Shown here one piece after another: positions 20,346 to 48,873 of a stretch of 49,138 bases of DNA (its first letter is position 1; each line of letters opens with the position of its first letter). The stretch is from an uncultured Clostridia bacterium (GTDB taxonomy: Bacteria > Bacillota > Clostridia > Oscillospirales > Ruminococcaceae): assembly GCA_947166945.1 (NCBI GenBank), contig CAMVGH010000006.1, forward strand, positions 1 through 49,138, given 5' to 3'. Both the position numbers and the translations under genes were made by a program. Under the pieces are notes generated by a model. The model was not told the DNA's origin, searched no databases, and saw only the letters and a program-made list of their open reading frames with translations.

Positions 20346-20596
20346 TGTCTTTTTACCCCTTTCGTAATATTCTGTCATCGGGTGTCATAAGGCATTTTTC
20401 CGCTCACACTATCCCGTGTGTTCCCCGAACCCCGATATATCCTCGGAGCCGTTCCCGGCGCAGGGGGTATCCGCCTCGGGCGAACCCTTCCCCGTTATTA
20501 AAGCCTTATTGTCCGCAGAGGTCTCTGCCTCCGCATACTCCGCCGAAATTCCCGGCTTTCGCCGCAACCTCCGGCATCACCGCTGTTACAGTGCAA
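20346..20596 (-). promoter_or_regulatory. Long leader of the S10 operon
   Basis: About 250 nt of 5' untranslated RNA. A long-range pair links ATAAGGC (20509-20503 read on the minus strand) with GCCTTAT (20393-20387). Hairpins GCAGA/TCTGC (20528-20515) and CACAC/GTGTG (20420-20405) are also clear. Such leaders often bind a ribosomal protein for feedback; the ligand protein is not evident here. No gene lies in this gap. Confidence 0.5.
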
Positions 20597-40879: not shown

Positions 40880-40917
40880 CCTGTTGTTCCGATAAGAACG
40901 ACAGGTTTGTTTTTTTG
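40880..40917 (+). terminator. Terminator downstream of the ABC-F gene
   Basis: CCTGTTGTTC (40880-40889) pairs with GAACGACAGG (40896-40905), one U.G pair valid only on the plus strand, followed by TTTGTTTTTTT. It is 169 nt after the stop codon and isolates the speA promoter. Confidence 0.9.
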
Positions 40918-40947: not shown

Positions 40948-40976
40948 TTGACAAAAAAATGTATTTATGCTATAAT
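40948..40976 (+). promoter_or_regulatory. Strong promoter of the polyamine operon
   Basis: Perfect hexamers TTGACA (40948-40953) and TATAAT (40971-40976), spacer exactly 17 nt. Transcription should start near 40981-40984, giving a leader of about 250 nt before speA. Confidence 0.9.
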
Positions 40977-41019
40977 ATGTATTGACCATTAAAAAAGCCC
41001 ATACGGACAGGCGGGTCAG

Positions 41020-41079
41020 ATGCCGAGAGCAGCAGGAAAAGCTGCATTATTGATTGAGTTAAAAGCTCAAATTTTATAA
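41020..41079 (+). CDS. Possible 19-residue leader peptide upstream of speA
   Basis: ATG 41020 to TAA 41079 encodes MPRAAGKAALLIELKAQIL. A purine-rich AGGCGGG lies 5-11 bases upstream and can be masked by pairing with the RNA 5' end. The GCAGC and TTGAG hairpins are inside the reading frame, so a ribosome would change the fold of the leader. Polyamine genes in other bacteria are known to use ornithine-sensing leader peptides (SpeFL in gamma-proteobacteria), but there is no sequence similarity visible. A chance ORF cannot be excluded. Confidence 0.35.
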   Translation: MPRAAGKAALLIELKAQIL

Positions 41080-41183
41080 GATGATAACTTTATAATCAGT
41101 CACTTGTGAAACGGTCAATAAGAACGGCATAGTCCGAACGGAATTCCGGAAGTATATTTTTTCCTTACGGATATAGACTATTT

Positions 41184-41212
41184 AAAGTGATACGATTATG
41201 TATCACTTTTTT
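41184..41212 (+). terminator. Intrinsic terminator (attenuator) just before speA
   Basis: AAAGTGATAC (41184-41193), loop GATTAT, GTATCACTTT (41200-41209), then TTTGTTTG. A perfect 10-bp stem with a U-run, ending about 20 nt before the speA ATG. As no gene ends in front of it, its natural role is premature termination of the leader transcript. Confidence 0.88.
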
Positions 41213-41233
41213 GTTTGTTACGGAAGTATAACT

Positions 41234-42688
41234 ATGGATATTGAAAGACAAAAATCAGCACCCGTCTATGAGGCGCTCGAAAGATTCAGAAAACAGCGCG
41301 TGGTACCCTTCGATGTGCCGGGACACAAGCGCGGCCGCGGCAACCCCGAACTCGTGAAGCTCCTCGGAGAACAGTGCGTTTCACTCGATGTCAATTCGAT
41401 GAAACCGCTCGATAACCTCTGCCACCCCGTTTCGGTAATATATGAGGCGGAACAGCTCGCCGCAGACGCTTTCGGAGCCGCCCACGCATACTTCATGGTA
41501 GGCGGCACCACCTCGGCGGTGCAGAGTATGATACTCTCGGCATGCAAGGCGGGAGATAAGATAATCATGCCGCGAAATGTGCATCGAAGCGCAATAAACG
41601 CACTCGTGCTCTGCGGCGCCGAACCGGTCTATGTCAACCCTGACGTGGATAACCATATCGGCATCGCCCTCGGTATGGAGACAGATCTTGTAAAAAAGGC
41701 TATGGACGAAAATCCCGACGCCGTTGCCGTGCTGATAAACAATCCCACTTATTACGGTATATGCTCCGACCTTCGGTCGATAGTACGGCTTGCCCATGAG
41801 CATAATATGCTTGTGCTGGTAGATGAAGCACACGGTACGCATCTGTATTTCCATGAAGAGCTGCCCGTTTCCGCTATGGAAGCAGGCGCGGATATGGCGG
41901 CAGTGTCCATGCACAAGTCCGGAGGAAGCCTTACGCAAAGCTCCCTGCTCCTGCTGAACGATACTGTCAATACACGCTACGTCGAGCAGATAATAAATCT
42001 CACCCAGACCACGAGCGCGTCGTACCTTCTTTTGTCGAGTCTTGACATTTCCCGCCGTAATCTCGCCCTCCGTGGTCATGAGTCATTTGAGAAAGTCACA
42101 AAAATGGCGGAATATGCCCGCAGCGAGATAAACTCGATCGGCGGTTACTACGCATACGGAAAAGACCTCGTCAACGGCAGCAGCATCTTCGATTTCGATG
42201 TGACCAAGCTCTCGGTTTATACACGGGATATGGGACTTACCGGAATTGAAGTGTATGATCTGCTCCGCGACGAATATGATATTCAGATAGAATTCGGGGA
42301 TATCGGAAATATCCTCGCTTATATCTCCATCGGAGACAGGATACAGGATATCGAGCGCCTTGTCGGTGCGCTGGAGGATATCAAGAGACTGTATTCAAAG
42401 CCCGTGTCAAGGCAGCATAACGCGGAATATATCACCCCTATCGTTGCCGCGACACCGCAGAAGGCTTTCTACGCAGACAAGAAACTGGTGCCGATACATG
42501 AGACGGCAGGTATGATATGCGGAGAGTTCGTTATGTGCTACCCGCCGGGAATACCGATACTCGCGCCGGGCGAGCAGATAACCGAGGAGATAATCAGCTA
42601 TATCCTCTACGCGAAGGAAAAGGGCTGCTCGATGCAGGGTCCGGAAGACCCGGAGATCGAAAAACTCAACGTCCTGACCGATATATGA
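41234..42688 (+). CDS. speA: Arginine (Orn/Lys/Arg family) decarboxylase
   Basis: A 484-residue fold-type I PLP decarboxylase without the N-terminal wing domain of the big inducible enzymes. It shows PFDVPGHKRGRGNPEL, the PLP-ring stacking and Asp of VDEAHGTHLYF (D197), and the Schiff-base lysine K228 in SMHKSGGSLTQ; the small C-terminal domain ends GPEDPEIEKLNVLTDI. Family members act on arginine, lysine or ornithine; the agmatine-converting genes downstream make arginine the probable substrate. Start ATG 41234 has CGGAAG upstream; the ATG at 41198 lies inside the terminator stem. First gene of the operon. Confidence 0.92.
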   Translation: MDIERQKSAPVYEALERFRKQRVVPFDVPGHKRGRGNPELVKLLGEQCVSLDVNSMKPLDNLCHPVSVIYEAEQLAADAFGAAHAYFMVGGTTSAVQSMILSACKAGDKIIMPRNVHRSAINALVLCGAEPVYVNPDVDNHIGIALGMETDLVKKAMDENPDAVAVLINNPTYYGICSDLRSIVRLAHEHNMLVLVDEAHGTHLYFHEELPVSAMEAGADMAAVSMHKSGGSLTQSSLLLLNDTVNTRYVEQIINLTQTTSASYLLLSSLDISRRNLALRGHESFEKVTKMAEYARSEINSIGGYYAYGKDLVNGSSIFDFDVTKLSVYTRDMGLTGIEVYDLLRDEYDIQIEFGDIGNILAYISIGDRIQDIERLVGALEDIKRLYSKPVSRQHNAEYITPIVAATPQKAFYADKKLVPIHETAGMICGEFVMCYPPGIPILAPGEQITEEIISYILYAKEKGCSMQGPEDPEIEKLNVLTDI

Positions 42689-42704
42689 TTTAAGGAGCTC
42701 TTAA

Positions 42705-43571
42705 ATGGATTTTTGGTTTTCTGAAATGCACACTTCAAATGTGAAGATGTCCATAAGGGTTGAAAAACAGCTTTTCAGCGGAACAAGCGATTTCCAGAGG
42801 ATCGACGTGTTCGAGTCCCCGGAATTCGGAAAGTTCGTTACATCGGACGGAAGTGTTATCTTCTCCGAACAGGACGAGTTCACCTACGACGAGATGATAG
42901 TCCATGTGCCTATGGCGGTCCACCCGAATGTGCGCAAGGTGCTGGTCATCGGCGGCGGCGACGGCGGTGTTGCGCGTGAGCTGTCACATTATGACGAGAT
43001 AGAACAGATAGATGTGGTGGAGCCGGACGAGATGTTCGTGAACGTCTGCCGGGAATTCTTCCCCGATAACTCCAAAGGGCTCGACGACCCGAGAGTGTCC
43101 GTCATCAACCGCGACGGACTGCGGGTGCTTCGCGGAAAGCAGGACGAGTACGACCTCATAATCAACGACAGCACAGATCCCTTCGGGCATACTGCGGGAC
43201 TGTTCACAAAGGAGTTCTACGGAAGCTGCTTCAAGTCGCTCCACGATGACGGGATAATGGTGTATCAGCACGGAAGCCCGTTCTTTGACGAGGACGAGGA
43301 AGCCTGCCGCGCCATGCATCGGAAAGCATACAAATCATTCCCAATAAGCAGGGTATATCAGGCGCATATCCCGACCTGCCCGTCAGGGTACTGGCTGTTC
43401 GGATTTGCTTCAAAAAAATACCACCCTCTTCATGACCTTGACGCCGCGCGCTGGAATGCACGGGGGCTGAAAACATGGTACTACACCACAAACCTCCACA
43501 TGGGCGCGTTCATGCTGCCGAAATATGTGGAAGACCTGCTCGAAGAGGAAGAAAGGGCTGAGAAAAAATGA
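42705..43571 (+). CDS. speE: Spermidine synthase (aminopropyltransferase)
   Basis: A 288-residue Rossmann enzyme transferring aminopropyl from decarboxylated SAM to putrescine. It shows QRIDVFESPEFGKFVTSDGS, DEFTYDEMIVHVPMAVHP, the nucleotide loop VLVIGGGDGGVARELSHY and the catalytic segment YDLIINDSTDPFG. A strong AAGGAG precedes the ATG, 17 nt after speA. No speD (SAM decarboxylase) is in the operon, so its donor must be made elsewhere. The next gene overlaps it by four bases. Confidence 0.93.
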   Translation: MDFWFSEMHTSNVKMSIRVEKQLFSGTSDFQRIDVFESPEFGKFVTSDGSVIFSEQDEFTYDEMIVHVPMAVHPNVRKVLVIGGGDGGVARELSHYDEIEQIDVVEPDEMFVNVCREFFPDNSKGLDDPRVSVINRDGLRVLRGKQDEYDLIINDSTDPFGHTAGLFTKEFYGSCFKSLHDDGIMVYQHGSPFFDEDEEACRAMHRKAYKSFPISRVYQAHIPTCPSGYWLFGFASKKYHPLHDLDAARWNARGLKTWYYTTNLHMGAFMLPKYVEDLLEEEERAEKK

Positions 43572-44239
43572 CAGAGGTGAAATTCGGGACACCGCAGCCC
43601 ATACCGTTCAGGCTTGCTGACTGCGGCAATATCGACATTATGCTCAGAGCAAGGGGAACGATCTCGGCTGATACCGACGATCCTAAGCTGAACAAGATCA
43701 TATCGGCAGAGGCTTTGAAACAGCTGAACAGATATCTCACCGACCATTCCGGGAAATTGAATTATGCCATGCTTACAAAACTTTACCCGGAACCGGAAAA
43801 GTTCCTGTCGTCGGAGCTGACAGACAAAATGGGGTTCACCTGCACGGCAAAGATAGAGGAGATCTCTCCGACCGAGGATTCAAAGAAGGTCGTGACCCAA
43901 AAACTTAATGAAATATTACAGAGCACGACAATATGTATCGATGAAAATTACAAGGGAGACTGCGTTCCGCCGGCAGGAATAAAATTCGGCAGCGCGTTGC
44001 CTGTGGGCATGGACGATGCTCTCAGATCAAAGGAGACTGCCGAAGAAGCGGATCGCCGGAAAAGCGGCTTTCCGGACTATGACGCGATGTGGGACAAGAT
44101 ACGTGAAAGTATTCCCCCGATACCGCAGCCCGTTCACGGGATAATGGCAGACAGCAGGCCGAAATTCTGCCGGAAATGCGGAAGCCCGCTGCCGCAGACG
44201 GGGAATTTCTGCGGGGAATGCGGGCAACCTATAATGTAA
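43568..44239 (+). CDS. SPFH-like (virion-core type) protein fused to a zinc ribbon
   Basis: A 223-residue protein of unknown function. The N-terminus (VKFGTPQPIPFRLADCGNID, LRARGTISADTDDP) resembles the SPFH domain of 'virion core protein/YdjI-like' families, with the pattern FGT.QPIPFR....LRA.GT.S. The C-terminus is a double-CxxC zinc ribbon (FCRKCGSPLPQTGNFCGECG). The middle (about 60-190) is not recognisable. Its ATG overlaps the speE stop (ATGA), so it is translated with the polyamine enzymes. The SPFH part is shorter than in usual proteins (which exceed 300 residues), so this may be a reduced form. Confidence 0.7.
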   Translation: MTEVKFGTPQPIPFRLADCGNIDIMLRARGTISADTDDPKLNKIISAEALKQLNRYLTDHSGKLNYAMLTKLYPEPEKFLSSELTDKMGFTCTAKIEEISPTEDSKKVVTQKLNEILQSTTICIDENYKGDCVPPAGIKFGSALPVGMDDALRSKETAEEADRRKSGFPDYDAMWDKIRESIPPIPQPVHGIMADSRPKFCRKCGSPLPQTGNFCGECGQPIM

Positions 44240-44261
44240 ATCCATAAAGGAAAAACCGGTC

Positions 44262-44456
44262 ATGCCATATAAAGCAAGATTTATTTATCCCGAACCGAAG
44301 GCAAGAACGGAAACTCTGAGAAAAGTCTTTGAGACGGAAAATGAAGCATTTCTGTACTCCGAAGAGCTGAGGAAGAAGCGCGAAAGCAAGGCTCCCGACT
44401 CTATGAAGTATGTTCTGACAGAAATCAGGGAAGTAAAGCAGAGAGATAAGAAGTAA
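44262..44456 (+). CDS. Small charged protein of unknown function
   Basis: A 64-residue protein, MPYKARFIYPEPKARTETLR then ETENEAFLYSEELRKKRESK, rich in Lys, Arg and Glu, with no signal or membrane segment. Predicted shape: a short strand followed by helices. AAAGGAAA lies upstream of the ATG, 22 nt after the zinc-ribbon gene and 16 nt before the dehydrogenase gene, so it belongs to the operon. I do not recognise the family. Confidence 0.7.
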   Translation: MPYKARFIYPEPKARTETLRKVFETENEAFLYSEELRKKRESKAPDSMKYVLTEIREVKQRDKK

Positions 44457-44472
44457 AATTACGGAGGTCAAT

Positions 44473-45726
44473 ATGAAGTTAATGGTAATAGGCTGCGGCG
44501 GAGTAGCGACCGTCGCAATACACAAGTGCTGCGAAAATCCGATATTTACGGAGATAATGATAGCGAGCAGGACAAAGAGCAAGTGCGACGCACTTGCGGA
44601 CAAGTTGAGAGACAAGACCAAGGCTGTGCTTACAACGGCGACAGTTGACGCGGACAGCTTCGATTCTCTCTGCGCACTTATGAAAGAGTTCAAGCCCCAT
44701 ACCGTGCTGAATGTGGCTCTGCCCTATCAGGATCTTACGATCATGGACGCGTGCCTTGAGTGCGGCGCGAACTATGTCGATACCGCAAACTACGAAGCCG
44801 AGGACACCGACGATCCGGAGTGGCGCGCGATATACGAAAAACGCTGCAAGGAAAAGGGCTTCACCGCATACTTCGATTATTCGTGGCAGTGGGCATATCA
44901 GGACAAGTTCAGAGCAGCGGGACTTACCGCGCTGCTGGGTACCGGATTCGACCCCGGCGTAACAAGCGTTTATACCGCTTATGCCCTCAAACACTACTTC
45001 GACGAGATCCACTATATCGACATTCTCGACTGCAACGGCGGCGACCACGGCTACCCCTTCGCCACAAACTTCAACCCGGAGATAAATCTGCGCGAAGTCT
45101 CCGCCAACGGCTCCTACTGGGAGGACGGTCACTGGGTAGAGACAAAGCCCATGGAGATAAAGCGGGAGTATAACTTTGACGGCGTAGGTATGAAGGATAT
45201 GTACCTGCTCCACCATGAGGAGATAGAGTCCCTCGCCAAAAATATCCCGAACGTAAAGAGAATACGCTTCTTCATGACCTTCGGACAGTCATACCTCACC
45301 CACATGAACTGCTTGCAGAATGTTGGTATGCTCGGTACAACACCCGTTATGTTCGAGGGCAGGGAGATAGTTCCGATCAAATTCCTGAAAGCACTGCTCC
45401 CCGACCCGGCTTCGCTGGGTCCCCGCACTGTCGGAAAGACAAATATCGGCTGCATTTTCCGCGGCATAAAGGACGGCAAGGAGCGCAATATCTATATCTA
45501 TAACGTCTGCGATCATCAGGAGTGCTACAAGGAGACAGGCGCACAGGCTGTTTCCTATACCACCGGCGTTCCCGCAATGATAGGCACGGCAATGGTAGCA
45601 GGCGGAACATGGAAGGGCGCGGGTGTGTTCAATGTCGAGGAGTTCGACCCCGACCCGTATATGGACGCGCTCAATAAGTACGGTCTGCCGTGGCAGGTGA
45701 ACGAAAACCCCGTACTGGTGGACTGA
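44473..45726 (+). CDS. Carboxynorspermidine/carboxyspermidine dehydrogenase (saccharopine dehydrogenase-like)
   Basis: A 417-residue NAD(P)H enzyme starting MKLMVIGCGGVATVAIHKCC (Rossmann), with TANYEAEDTDDPEWRAIYEK, LGTGFDPGVTSVYTAYALKH and CNGGDHGYPFATNFNPEINL, the layout of the carboxynorspermidine synthase branch of the saccharopine dehydrogenase fold. It condenses aspartate semialdehyde with putrescine (or diaminopropane) to carboxyspermidine. ACGGAGG precedes the ATG. The decarboxylase partner starts one base after the stop. Confidence 0.92.
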   Translation: MKLMVIGCGGVATVAIHKCCENPIFTEIMIASRTKSKCDALADKLRDKTKAVLTTATVDADSFDSLCALMKEFKPHTVLNVALPYQDLTIMDACLECGANYVDTANYEAEDTDDPEWRAIYEKRCKEKGFTAYFDYSWQWAYQDKFRAAGLTALLGTGFDPGVTSVYTAYALKHYFDEIHYIDILDCNGGDHGYPFATNFNPEINLREVSANGSYWEDGHWVETKPMEIKREYNFDGVGMKDMYLLHHEEIESLAKNIPNVKRIRFFMTFGQSYLTHMNCLQNVGMLGTTPVMFEGREIVPIKFLKALLPDPASLGPRTVGKTNIGCIFRGIKDGKERNIYIYNVCDHQECYKETGAQAVSYTTGVPAMIGTAMVAGGTWKGAGVFNVEEFDPDPYMDALNKYGLPWQVNENPVLVD

Positions 45727-45727
45727 G

Positions 45728-46876
45728 ATGATGAACCAAAGACTGCTGCCGAGAACAGAGCTGGGCGAGATGATGACACCCGCTTATGTCATAGACGAGA
45801 GCGCACTGCACCGCAATCTGAAGATACTCCTTGATGTTCAGCAGCGCTCCGGCTGTAAGATATTGCTTGCGCAGAAAGCGTTTTCTATGTTCGCGGTGTA
45901 TCCGCTGATCTCGGAATACCTCGCGGGAACCACCGCAAGCGGGCTGTATGAAGCAAGGCTCGGACATGAAGAGTTCGGCGCAGGGGACGTTCACGTTTTC
46001 AGCCCCGCGTACAAGGAAAATGAGATATGTGACATAGCAAATTATGCCGACCATATCGTGTTCAATTCATTTGCGCAGCTGCGGAAGTTCCGCGGGTACT
46101 GCAAAGGCAAAAGTCTCGGCATACGCATAAACCCGGAGTGTTCGACACAGGATGAGCCTATATATGACCCCTGCGCAGAGGGCTCACGGCTCGGCGTTAC
46201 GCTTGCGAACTTCGATGAAGCGGAGTTCGGGGGCGTTGACGGCATACACTTCCACACGCTCTGCGAACAGGGCTTTGAGCCGCTTGCAAAAACCGTGGAA
46301 GTTGTGGAGCAGAAGTTCGGCAAGTATCTGCACAAATGCAAATGGGTGAATTTCGGCGGCGGACATCATATCACTAAGCCCGGTTACGACATCGAGGGGC
46401 TTGTATCGCTGATAAAGCGGTTCTCCGAGAAGTACGGGGTACAGGTGTATCTCGAACCCGGAGAAGCCGTGGTGCTGAACGCGGGTTGGCTCGTTGCCGA
46501 AGTCATGGAGATCGTGCATAACGGCATGGATATCGCTATACTCGATACCTCCGCAGCGTGCCATATGCCGGACGTGCTGGAGATGCCGTACCGCCCGCCG
46601 CTTTTTAACAGCGGACACCCCGGCGAAAAAAGATACACATACCGCCTGTCCTCACGGACCTGCCTTGCGGGCGACATCATCGGCGACTACAGCTTTGATG
46701 AACCGCTGAGCGAAGGTGACAGACTGTGCTTCGAGGATATGGCGCTCTATACTATGGTAAAGAACAACACCTTCAACGGAATGCCGTTGCCCGATATCGG
46801 CATACTTCACAAAAACGGAGAATATGAGCTTGTGAAGCGGTTCGGGTATGAGGATTTCAGAGGGAGACTGTCATGA
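45728..46876 (+). CDS. nspC: Carboxynorspermidine/carboxyspermidine decarboxylase
   Basis: A 382-residue alanine-racemase-fold PLP decarboxylase. K50 in LLAQKAFSMFAVYP binds PLP; the family segments RINPECSTQDEPIYDPCAEG, SRLGVT, VNFGGGHHITKPGYDIE, LEPGEAVVLNAGW and the Cys-containing SAACHMPDVLEMPYRPP are all present. It releases CO2 to give spermidine (or norspermidine). The ATG may be 45728 or 45731. It overlaps aguA by four bases. Confidence 0.94.
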   Translation: MMNQRLLPRTELGEMMTPAYVIDESALHRNLKILLDVQQRSGCKILLAQKAFSMFAVYPLISEYLAGTTASGLYEARLGHEEFGAGDVHVFSPAYKENEICDIANYADHIVFNSFAQLRKFRGYCKGKSLGIRINPECSTQDEPIYDPCAEGSRLGVTLANFDEAEFGGVDGIHFHTLCEQGFEPLAKTVEVVEQKFGKYLHKCKWVNFGGGHHITKPGYDIEGLVSLIKRFSEKYGVQVYLEPGEAVVLNAGWLVAEVMEIVHNGMDIAILDTSAACHMPDVLEMPYRPPLFNSGHPGEKRYTYRLSSRTCLAGDIIGDYSFDEPLSEGDRLCFEDMALYTMVKNNTFNGMPLPDIGILHKNGEYELVKRFGYEDFRGRLS

Positions 46877-47952
46877 GTTTTTATATGCCCGCCGAGTTCT
46901 CGGAACAGCAGGCGGCAATACTGATATTCCCCGAACGTCCGGGTTCATGGGGGTTCGGGGCAAGACCCGCGCAGAAAGTCTTTGCAAAGATAATAAACAC
47001 GATCGCAAAGCATGAGCAGGTATATGTGATAGTAAGCGATAAGACACGCAAGGCAGCGGAAGAACTGCTCCGCCCCGACAATATCACTCTGCTCGATATT
47101 CCCGCCGATGACGCATGGGCGCGTGACACGGCTCCCACTTTCGTGAAAGACCGTGAGACAGGCGAGATTTGCGGCATTGACTGGAAATTCAACGCGTGGG
47201 GCGGTGAATATGACGGGCTGTATGCCCACTGGGAGCGCGATGACGCTCTCGCGGAAAAATTCTGCGAAGCTGCGGGATTCGGCTGCATCAGCGCGGGAGA
47301 TTTCGTGCTGGAGGGCGGCTCGATACACACAGACGGCGAAGGTACAGTGATGGCGACCGAAGCCTGTCTGCTAAGTCCGGGGAGAAATCCCGGAATGACA
47401 AAGCGGCAGATAGAACAGAAGCTTCTCGGTATGCTCGGCTGTGAGAAGATGATATGGCTGCCGAGAGGGATATACAACGACGAGACGAACGAGCATATCG
47501 ACAATGTGTGCGCGTTTATCCGCCCCGCCGAAGTCGTACTCGCATGGACGGACGATACGGACGACCCGCAGTATGAGCTGTCCGCCGCCTGTCTGAATGT
47601 ACTTGAAAATTCCACAGATGCCAAAGGACGGAAGATCATAGTCCACAAACTCCCGATACCGGATATACCTGTGTGCGTATCGGAACACGATCTTGAGGGC
47701 TATGAATTCGAGGAGGGCGAGGACACCCGCGAGGTCGGGGAACGGCTCGCCGCATCTTATGTTAATTTCTTCTTTGCAAATGATATAGTGCTGCTCCCGC
47801 AGTTCGGCGGCGAAAATGCGTCAGGCGACAAACGCGCGCTCGACATAATGCGCAGTCTTCTCCCGGAACGTGAGATCATACCCGTTGACGCCATTGAGAT
47901 AATCAAAGGCGGCGGGAATATACACTGTATCACGCAGCAGATACCGAAATGA
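46873..47952 (+). CDS. aguA: Agmatine deiminase
   Basis: A 359-residue member of the guanidino-group-modifying fold that converts agmatine to N-carbamoylputrescine and ammonia. Substrate and catalytic motifs are DDAWARDTAPTFV, FNAWGGEYDG, LEGGSIHTDGEGT and the nucleophile Cys352 in GGGNIHCITQQIPK at the C-terminus. The start overlaps nspC (ATGA), with GAGGGAG upstream. It links SpeA's product to putrescine. Confidence 0.96.
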   Translation: MSFYMPAEFSEQQAAILIFPERPGSWGFGARPAQKVFAKIINTIAKHEQVYVIVSDKTRKAAEELLRPDNITLLDIPADDAWARDTAPTFVKDRETGEICGIDWKFNAWGGEYDGLYAHWERDDALAEKFCEAAGFGCISAGDFVLEGGSIHTDGEGTVMATEACLLSPGRNPGMTKRQIEQKLLGMLGCEKMIWLPRGIYNDETNEHIDNVCAFIRPAEVVLAWTDDTDDPQYELSAACLNVLENSTDAKGRKIIVHKLPIPDIPVCVSEHDLEGYEFEEGEDTREVGERLAASYVNFFFANDIVLLPQFGGENASGDKRALDIMRSLLPEREIIPVDAIEIIKGGGNIHCITQQIPK

Positions 47953-47997
47953 GCGCTTATCCGCAAAAAAATCTTAAAAAGCAGAAATCAGGTTTAT

Positions 47998-48873
47998 ATG
48001 AAAAAGGTATGTACCGCCGCGGTACAGATGCACTGCGGCAGAGATGTCAATGATAATATCGCACTCGCGGAGAAGCTGGTAAGACAGGCTGCCGCGGACG
48101 GCGCAAACATTATCCTGCTCCCGGAGCTGTTTGAACGGCAGTACTTCTGCCAGGAACGCAGATATGACTACTACAGTTTCGCAAAACCGACAGAGGAAAA
48201 CGACGCGGTGAAGCATTTCCGTAAGGTCGCGGAAGAACTGGGCATCGTACTTCCGATAAGCTTCTACGAACGGGACGGTAATGTCCTGTACAATTCCATA
48301 GCGATCATAGACGCGGACGGAACTGTTCTCGGTGTTTACCGCAAGACCCATATCCCGGACGATCACTACTATCAGGAAAAATTCTACTTCACGCCCGGCA
48401 ATACCGGATTTAAGGTATGGAAAACAAAGTATGCCGTTATCGGTGTAGGGATATGCTGGGATCAGTGGTTCCCGGAGACCGCAAGATGTATGGCGGTACA
48501 GGGTGCGGAGCTTTTGTACTTTCCCACCGCTATCGGAAGCGAGCCTATACTCGAAGTGGACAGTATGCCGCACTGGAGGCGAGTGATGCAGGGACACGCC
48601 GCCGCAAATGTCATACCCGTCATAGCGGCAAACAGAACAGGCACAGAAACAGTCGAGCCAACCGAGGAAAACGGCGGACAAAGCTCCGCCCTGAAATTCT
48701 ACGGTTCTTCATTCATAACCGACGCCACCGGCGAAATTATAAAGGAATGTGACCGCGAACGTGACGCGGTCATAACAGCAGAGTTCGATCTCGCGGAGAT
48801 CGACGAGCTGCGGCTCGGGTGGGGGCTATTCAGAGACCGCCGTCCCGATAAATACGGCATTATAGCAAAATAA
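47998..48873 (+). CDS. aguB: N-carbamoylputrescine amidase
   Basis: A 291-residue nitrilase-superfamily hydrolase giving putrescine, CO2 and ammonia. The Glu-Lys-Cys triad is E43 ([11 protein letters not shown]), K116 ([10 protein letters not shown]) and C153 ([10 protein letters not shown]). The family tail reads [15 protein letters not shown]. The ribosome site is weak (CAGG) and the gene follows aguA by 45 nt. It ends the polyamine pathway genes. Confidence 0.96.

Follow-up and report, generated by a model that had tools for sequence, protein, structure and literature searches.

Polyamine riboswitches have long been sought. The literature searched for polyamine riboswitches yielded one experimentally supported class, a variant of SAM-I, and an earlier description of the RNA reported here may exist elsewhere, including in supplements. 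In the parts of the report by Salvail et al. (2023) considered here, this spermidine riboswitch, which lies upstream of ldcC, speB and speE, was shown by experiment to be an OFF switch acting by premature termination; it is called rare (its consensus comes from 13 representatives), and the authors expect additional polyamine riboswitch classes still to be discovered (PMC10853860). Candidate RNA regulators of polyamine genes are also described by Brewer et al. (2021), where, in the sections drawn on here, the odc1 motif is an alpha-proteobacterial hairpin with overlapping UUG start codons, which sequesters the RBS and is associated with an 11-residue uORF peptide, and the potE-associated motif has weak covariation and an expression platform that is not obvious (PMC8632094). 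The leaders of Salmonella speF and E. coli mdtJI are long, precede polyamine genes and work by premature termination, and, in the portions of the two reports used here, they need translation of a conserved uORF together with Rho (PMC6386406; PMC7815308). The main text of a genome-wide RNA screen (PMC11109978) contains none of six polyamine words.

The RNA analysed in this work is a leader in a 49,138-nt stretch of DNA from an uncultured Clostridia bacterium of the Ruminococcaceae (GCA_947166945.1, contig CAMVGH010000006.1; the whole stretch is called the window below, and features are on the + strand unless stated otherwise). An initial annotation had proposed an attenuation leader for polyamine biosynthesis, a proposal that our comparison supports, with a leader larger than first noted. 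The window RNA resembles the Salvail riboswitch in its OFF logic before polyamine genes, which for the window RNA is only proposed; the two differ in that the former class, as described in the sections cited above, is rare and has a four-stem SAM-I fold, whereas the window RNA is made of other helices and occurs in 86 sampled genomes. Given this different fold and the lack of any SAM-family match in Rfam scans of the window (E up to 10), the known spermidine riboswitch was rejected as its identity. The raiA motif (RF03072, ModT) is likewise a long, extremely conserved Bacillota RNA, but it is, in the part of the source considered, an abundant trans-acting RNA (PMC11706538), while the window RNA is a leader with a terminator tied to it. 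It was rejected because RF03072 was unmatched in three Rfam scans, and also in a search of six genomes, which is weak alone since that search matched no control genome either. The odc1 and potE motifs are set apart from the window RNA by their published descriptions, as far as these are covered by the sections cited, and the speF and mdtJI leaders by the intrinsic terminator of the window RNA and by the lack of conservation of its short ORF at 41020.

The initial annotation had recognised no known class in the leader, which stands only in part. The first 44 nt of the leader (40983-41026) match Rfam RF02440 over the full model (positions 1-54) with 51.3 bits, exceeding the gathering threshold of 37.2 (E 2.1e-06), and the other four Rfam matches in the window (E up to 10) are all far below their thresholds. 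This is formally a match to a known class. Nevertheless, the record (SpF59_sRNA, "ldcC RNA", representing F59/srn235/SN20 of Streptococcus pneumoniae and filed as type Gene; sRNA) consists of one hairpin, ends at 54 positions and gives neither an expression platform nor a mechanism, so the match to these 5' positions does not explain the finding away. Its 54 positions correspond to the 5' domain of the window family (P2, P3, the inner hairpin, the CATACGGACA loop and GCCGA), and past the match conservation runs on for about 200 nt. RF02440 is a 5' fragment of a much longer RNA, and the streptococcal F59 and the window leader belong to the same family; F59 also appears, in the part of a 2025 conservation study seen, under the name M7 (PMC12323649). 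RF02440 is thus an example of a large regulatory RNA concealed behind an incomplete Rfam entry.

In the window, the leader is preceded by a consensus promoter, as had been annotated (TTGACA at 40948-40953, a 17-nt spacer and TATAAT at 40971-40976; 40948-40976), whose spacing points to a transcript start at about 40982-40983. The candidate aptamer would consequently begin at the very 5' end of the RNA, which starts with TGACC. Farther upstream, inspection by eye shows a hairpin CCTGTTGTTC/GAACGACAGG and, after it, a T-rich run (40880-40917), which together probably terminate the preceding ABC-F-like gene and would insulate the polyamine operon. The leader folds more stably than 200 of 200 dinucleotide shuffles (z -3.21). 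Its conserved core, at 40983-41121, matches our covariance model R1 over the full length with 120.5 bits, a score to be read knowing that the window is itself among the 68 training sequences.

The 5' domain (40983-41018) is closed by P2 (40983-40987 with 41014-41018) and contains, as indicated by covariation and alignment, an inner hairpin (40997-40999 with 41010-41012) which closes the strongly conserved loop CATACGGACA (41000-41009). According to the alignment, the window RNA has lost the P3 hairpin seen in relatives. A GCCGA segment follows (41022-41026), conserved to at least 90% in the alignment of 68 sequences, and then the P4 hairpin GCAGC/GCTGC (41029-41045), in which all six pair positions are changed on both sides in relatives. 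The remainder of the core is the P5 domain (41047-41121), formed by TTATTGAT (41047-41054) with GTCAATAA (41114-41121) and enclosing, as aligned, P6a (41055-41058/41066-41069), P6 and P7 (41082-41085/41095-41098); in the family core it encloses the variable P8 as well. P6 probably has nine pairs, TTTTATAAG (41072-41080) with CTTGTGAAA (41103-41111). After the core, a comparison by eye points to a hairpin ATAGTC (41129-41134)/GACTAT (41176-41181), which keeps the motif ATATAGACT and would be the counterpart of the GAGT...ACTCT module of the relatives; this hairpin (41129-41181) is uncertain, since the minimum-energy fold pairs GTCCG/CGGAT there. The leader ends in an intrinsic terminator (41184-41212; ten perfect pairs followed by a T-run), which was read in the sequence as annotated and was also recovered by a terminator scan.

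Model R1 has 163 positions and 41 pairs and was built from 68 sequences (alignment A1), chosen from 95 less-similar cores among 115 usable ones; those left out by hand were L064, for lack of a placeable P2 strand, and a further 26, mostly cores with long inserts or short cores. The potA-type loci are represented in A1 only by L133. In this alignment, 79 positions are conserved to at least 90% (32 invariant and 47 more), 93.0% of the cells are paired, and 22 pairs show changes in both partners (202 cells). Each of five covariation measures exceeds all 500 shuffles, and in a control with slid partners pairing is at most 47.4%. The covariation that the annotation's own check called for is also present in 41 sequences with cores outside the training set, where 93.1% of cells are paired and 25 pairs show double changes (187 cells), with no shuffle in 500 as high on any of the five measures and slid controls at or below 43.8%; this second alignment, from whose 42 rows L240 was excluded as equal to a training row, was fitted to model R1 and is biased in its favour. 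The two helices closest to the switch, P5 and P6, carry almost no covariation because they hardly vary (taken with its probable extension, P6 has 98.0% of its cells paired in the 68 sequences and no covariation).

The elements named in the initial annotation all lie where it had placed them (TGACC 40983-40987; GGTCA 41014-41018 and 41113-41117; CGGAC 41004-41008; GTCCG 41132-41136; ATGCCG 41020-41025; CGGCAT 41125-41130; GTCACTT 41099-41105; AAGTGAT 41185-41191), and their proposed pairings fared differently. The pairing of TGACC with GGTCA at 41014 is P2, which, like the antiterminator, recurs across the family more than expected by chance. The alternative pairing with GGTCA at 41113 was rejected: the isolated window core folds in this way, yet the relatives do not keep the pairing. 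In them the first base of TGACC is T, G or C, and in 66 of 68 sequences its match is found in the 41014-41018 strand; in the 41113 strand, TCA is invariant in all 68. The proposed CGGAC/GTCCG pairing does not generalise either, as GTCCG occurs within 40 nt after P5 in only two of 119 loci (the window and L050). The ATGCCG/CGGCAT pairing survives as a helix, having lost its proposed role as a competitor. It is the closing helix GCCG(A)/(T)CGGC of a short form of the RNA (41020-41025 with 41125-41130, with GCCGA in its 5' strand), whose 3' motif is present in 6/7 short-form sequences versus 1/110 standard-form ones, and it coexists with P2, P4 and P5 in the minimum-energy fold of the window. In most members, an outer stem is formed instead by a strand just upstream of P2 with the 3' module; in the 100 of 113 module-bearing loci that entered the test, the outer-stem duplex has an energy of -9.96 with its own strands versus -7.23 (sd 0.22) with strands swapped between loci. 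The window, as a short-form member, is without the GAGT module used by this stem.

The strand carrying the conserved ACTTG forms the 3' side of P6 and, towards its own 5' end, of P7 or P8; the 5' arm of the terminator (41185-41191 and 41194-41199 in the window) is complementary to it. In the window, this antiterminator 5' strand (ATAATC, GTCACTT; 41092-41105, the 3' strand of P7/P6) can pair with 41185-41199, giving 13 pairs (41099-41105 with 41185-41191 and 41092-41097 with 41194-41199). The GTCACTT/AAGTGAT antiterminator had already been proposed, and its counterpart is conserved in the relatives by locus-specific complementarity. A terminator of -10 kcal/mol or better lies 3' of the core in 92/116 loci; the duplex statistics, which take in only loci with such a terminator, give a mean antiterminator energy of -11.72 kcal/mol with a locus's own arms. 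Shuffling the arms gives -6.52, and exchanging them among the 92 loci gives -9.81 (sd 0.21; best of 300, -10.39). The difference persists once four duplicate loci are removed (88 of 112 with terminator; own -11.80, swapped -9.88) and when exchange among these 88 loci is confined to members of one gene group (-10.30, sd 0.19; best of 300, -10.87). Among 53 further loci, which were collected as model matches rather than sampled blindly and include many from one Paenibacillus-like family, the 47 with a terminator gave -11.70, compared with -5.96 for shuffled and -10.63 (sd 0.26; best -11.49) for swapped arms. In 53 of the 92 loci, other 20-nt segments tried from the same RNA never pair as well with the arm. 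At single loci the significance is modest, duplexes beating their own shuffles at p 0.05 only in 55/92 and 32/47 loci, and the duplex is weak in L218 (-3.1) and L220 (-3.7). A first scan found no strong terminator in 24/116 and 6/53 loci; in 21 of those 24, a fixed 420-nt scan finds a hairpin with a T-run, and it finds none in L054, L107 and L113. This second scan was kept out of the statistics, because it may enter coding DNA (as in L061) and its matches in L055 overlap the gene start. These results predict a conserved antiterminator that uses the 3' strand of the aptamer helices P6/P7(P8) and is mutually exclusive with the terminator. That the leader is a structured RNA of attenuator design is well established by comparison, and we hold it with little doubt.

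Loci carrying the RNA were located purely by its sequence. RF02440 was found in 18/398 genomes of a phylum sample and in 38/148 of a family sample, the window's own genome being included in both. A pattern scan across named genomes found at least 119 stretches, of which the 80 listed ones were analysed and two removed as chance matches (L072, from Nocardioides, and L127, from Paenibacillus turpanensis, which by eye lies within a coding sequence). Among the stretches listed, the same long RNA was recognised in Paenibacillus, Bacillus, Neobacillus, Blautia, Faecalibacterium, Flavonifractor, Acidaminococcus and Phascolarctobacterium. Model R1 matches 20/398 genomes of the phylum sample, 33/348 in the class of genome G376 and 40/291 in the window's class, giving 86 distinct Bacillota genomes over the three samples; one of these is the window's own, and 12 hold a training core (ten by handle, and G929 and G911 by an identical core).

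Without the two chance matches, loci L001 to L135 provide 133 loci for gene context, whose first recognised gene is speD in 49, a speA-type decarboxylase in 36, potA in 19, a carboxynorspermidine synthase-like gene in 15 and a gene for a C39-like protein in 3, the DNA being too short in the remaining 11. In 119 of the 122 loci with an assignable first gene, that gene is thus a polyamine gene preceded by the RNA in the same orientation. In all 86 R1 genomes, the first recognised downstream gene is of the speA type, speD, carboxy(nor)spermidine dehydrogenase or potA, and this holds even for the weakest match (E 2.8e-4); for these sampled loci, "first recognised gene" means the first BLAST match to nine gene clusters, so that small unrelated genes lying before it would escape notice. 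Intervening genes have little space, the distance to the gene being at most 653 nt from P2 (119 loci) and at most 484 nt from P5 (53 loci); in L249 this distance is about 690 nt, and two ORFs (77 and 46 codons) lie within or behind the RNA. Gene identities are NCBIfam matches of cluster representatives and of the window proteins, those of the speA-type and dehydrogenase proteins staying under the curated cut-offs. Locus counts are slightly inflated by repeated cores, which are identical in L008/L091, L021/L105, L026/L063 and L035/L037, while L209, L223, L229, L240 and L256 repeat the cores of L007, L020, L066, L067 and L062, respectively.

In the window, the genes at 41234-48873 would form one operon, to go by their spacing and common strand. 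The first gene encodes a speA-type PLP decarboxylase of the Orn/Lys/Arg family (41234-42688), which matches NCBIfam models for lysine, ornithine and arginine decarboxylases, all far below the curated cut-offs; arginine is the presumed substrate, because aguA and aguB lie further along the operon. It is followed by speE (42705-43571; NCBIfam/Pfam), by a gene for a protein without an NCBIfam match (43568-44239), which shows weak C-terminal zinc-ribbon matches below the Pfam cut-offs and separates speE from the carboxyspermidine dehydrogenase gene, by that carboxynorspermidine synthase-like gene itself (44473-45726; 391 bits, cut-off 800), and by nspC (45728-46876), aguA (46873-47952) and aguB (47998-48873), all three matched in NCBIfam/Pfam. 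Parts of two spermidine routes therefore stand side by side at 42705-46876 on the + strand, namely speE and the carboxynorspermidine synthase-like gene with nspC. Between 41234 and 48873 no speD was recognised, in a window that extends to 49138.

Taken together, the leader is probably a cis-acting OFF switch for polyamine supply, with spermidine as the likeliest ligand. In the proposed mechanism, plentiful spermidine (or a near relative) would bind the folded core and P6/P7 would stay closed, allowing the terminator to form and stopping transcription at about 41212, whereas under scarce spermidine the strand 41092-41105 would be released to pair with 41185-41199, and the operon would be transcribed. 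The direction of the switch follows if ligand binding stabilises the core. The complementarity of the terminator arm to an aptamer strand would couple terminator formation to the folded core. Computed energies for the window are -57.4 kcal/mol for the OFF fold versus -46.0 with the antiterminator forced; for an RNA ending at 41199 they are -46.2, or -43.4 with the family fold forced, versus -40.5. As free energies favour the OFF fold even without ligand, a kinetic switch must be assumed.

Gene context makes a polyamine the likely direct ligand, and among polyamines we prefer spermidine because the RNA precedes both spermidine routes (speD and carboxyspermidine dehydrogenase), the shared speA step and potA, a gene of the spermidine/putrescine importer. 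The same RNA and attenuation could conceivably answer to another compound of the pathway (agmatine, putrescine, arginine, carboxyspermidine, decarboxylated SAM or MTA), given that speA, speE, aguA and aguB stand behind the window leader and that a polyamine context suits several compounds; we find this unlikely, since arginine and agmatine misfit the loci that begin with speD, the dehydrogenase gene or potA, a SAM-derived ligand misfits those in which carboxyspermidine dehydrogenase comes first, and spermidine suits all. The annotation's guess of a ligand from the polyamine pathway was a natural one, the speD, carboxyspermidine and potA contexts favouring spermidine over arginine or agmatine. 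Protein-dependent attenuators exist, and the ligand is here deduced from context, so a polyamine-responsive regulatory protein or other factor might bind the RNA and set termination. Conservation of at least 90% at 79 positions over 68 sequences extends, however, to the CATACGGACA loop and GCCGA as well as to helices, a pattern that ligand pockets show more typically than protein-binding sites do, and a bound protein or factor seems distinctly improbable. The same unpartnered segments, CATACGGACA and GCCGA, would be unexpected if polyamines and Mg2+ merely stabilised a compact RNA that lacks a specific pocket. Such a crude cation sensor, which we rate as a slight chance, draws its appeal from the unspecific binding of polyamines to RNA, the main experimental difficulty according to the sections of the Salvail report considered (PMC10853860).

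The RNA might also be a small RNA acting in trans, as RF02440 is filed, and F59/srn235/SN20 of S. pneumoniae is indeed catalogued as an sRNA between SP0915 and SP0916 in the part of the source consulted (PMC3395615). Against this stand the same-strand position before a polyamine gene (119/122 loci and 86/86 R1 genomes) and a terminator mostly tied to the RNA by complementarity; moreover, a terminated leader would itself register as an sRNA, and we give a trans-acting role very little credence. Even less credible is leader-peptide attenuation, in which ribosomes on a short ORF of 19 codons (41020-41079) would decide the fold. This ORF starts with an ATG at 41020 that follows a purine-rich stretch, and uORF control of speF and mdtJI is published, as the sections cited describe (PMC6386406; PMC7815308); yet a counterpart of the ATG is present in only 41 of 115 sequences, with ORFs ranging from 3 to 331 codons, and a conserved leader peptide at 41020 was rejected for that ORF.

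Returning to the spermidine-responsive OFF switch, three of the features by which riboswitches are recognised are found together in this RNA: a covarying structure, a cis location before related genes and a predicted terminator/antiterminator platform. With its strong covariation, consistent link to polyamine genes and clear platform, the window RNA has the traits expected of a further polyamine class. We lean, by a little more than even chances, to the broader reading that it represents a second polyamine/spermidine riboswitch class, structurally unrelated to the first and much commoner, its core spanning some 140-200 nt, or some 300 nt once the outer stem is included, which across Clostridia, Bacilli and Negativicutes would stop both spermidine synthesis and import, F59 being its terminated product. 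If true, this would explain constant spermidine in many gut and soil Bacillota and would offer a large new RNA-polyamine structure. Three loci (L054, L055 and L059) count against an OFF switch for polyamine supply, as they precede a gene for a C39-like protein without known polyamine link.

These three loci share the 5' domain, L054 and L055 have the ACTTGT[AG]A segment as well, and all are without the usual 3' part; the downstream gene encodes a lipoprotein-like protein whose peptidase domain is C39-like (PF13529 for the L054 protein), and the three loci may represent a variant class that has a different ligand or role. Loci L218-L221, all from one genus in the class of G376, are divergent members with a shortened inner loop. 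The element AATAAATAA is found twice, 21-29 nt apart from start to start, 3' of the core in four of 125 loci (L017, L033, L055 and L130), and as a single copy in five more (L010, L011, L013, L015 and L054); a putative accessory role may be assigned to it. Elsewhere in the window, on the - strand, the S10-Clostridia ribosomal protein leader (Rfam RF03136) was found at 20513-20588, with 44.5 bits.
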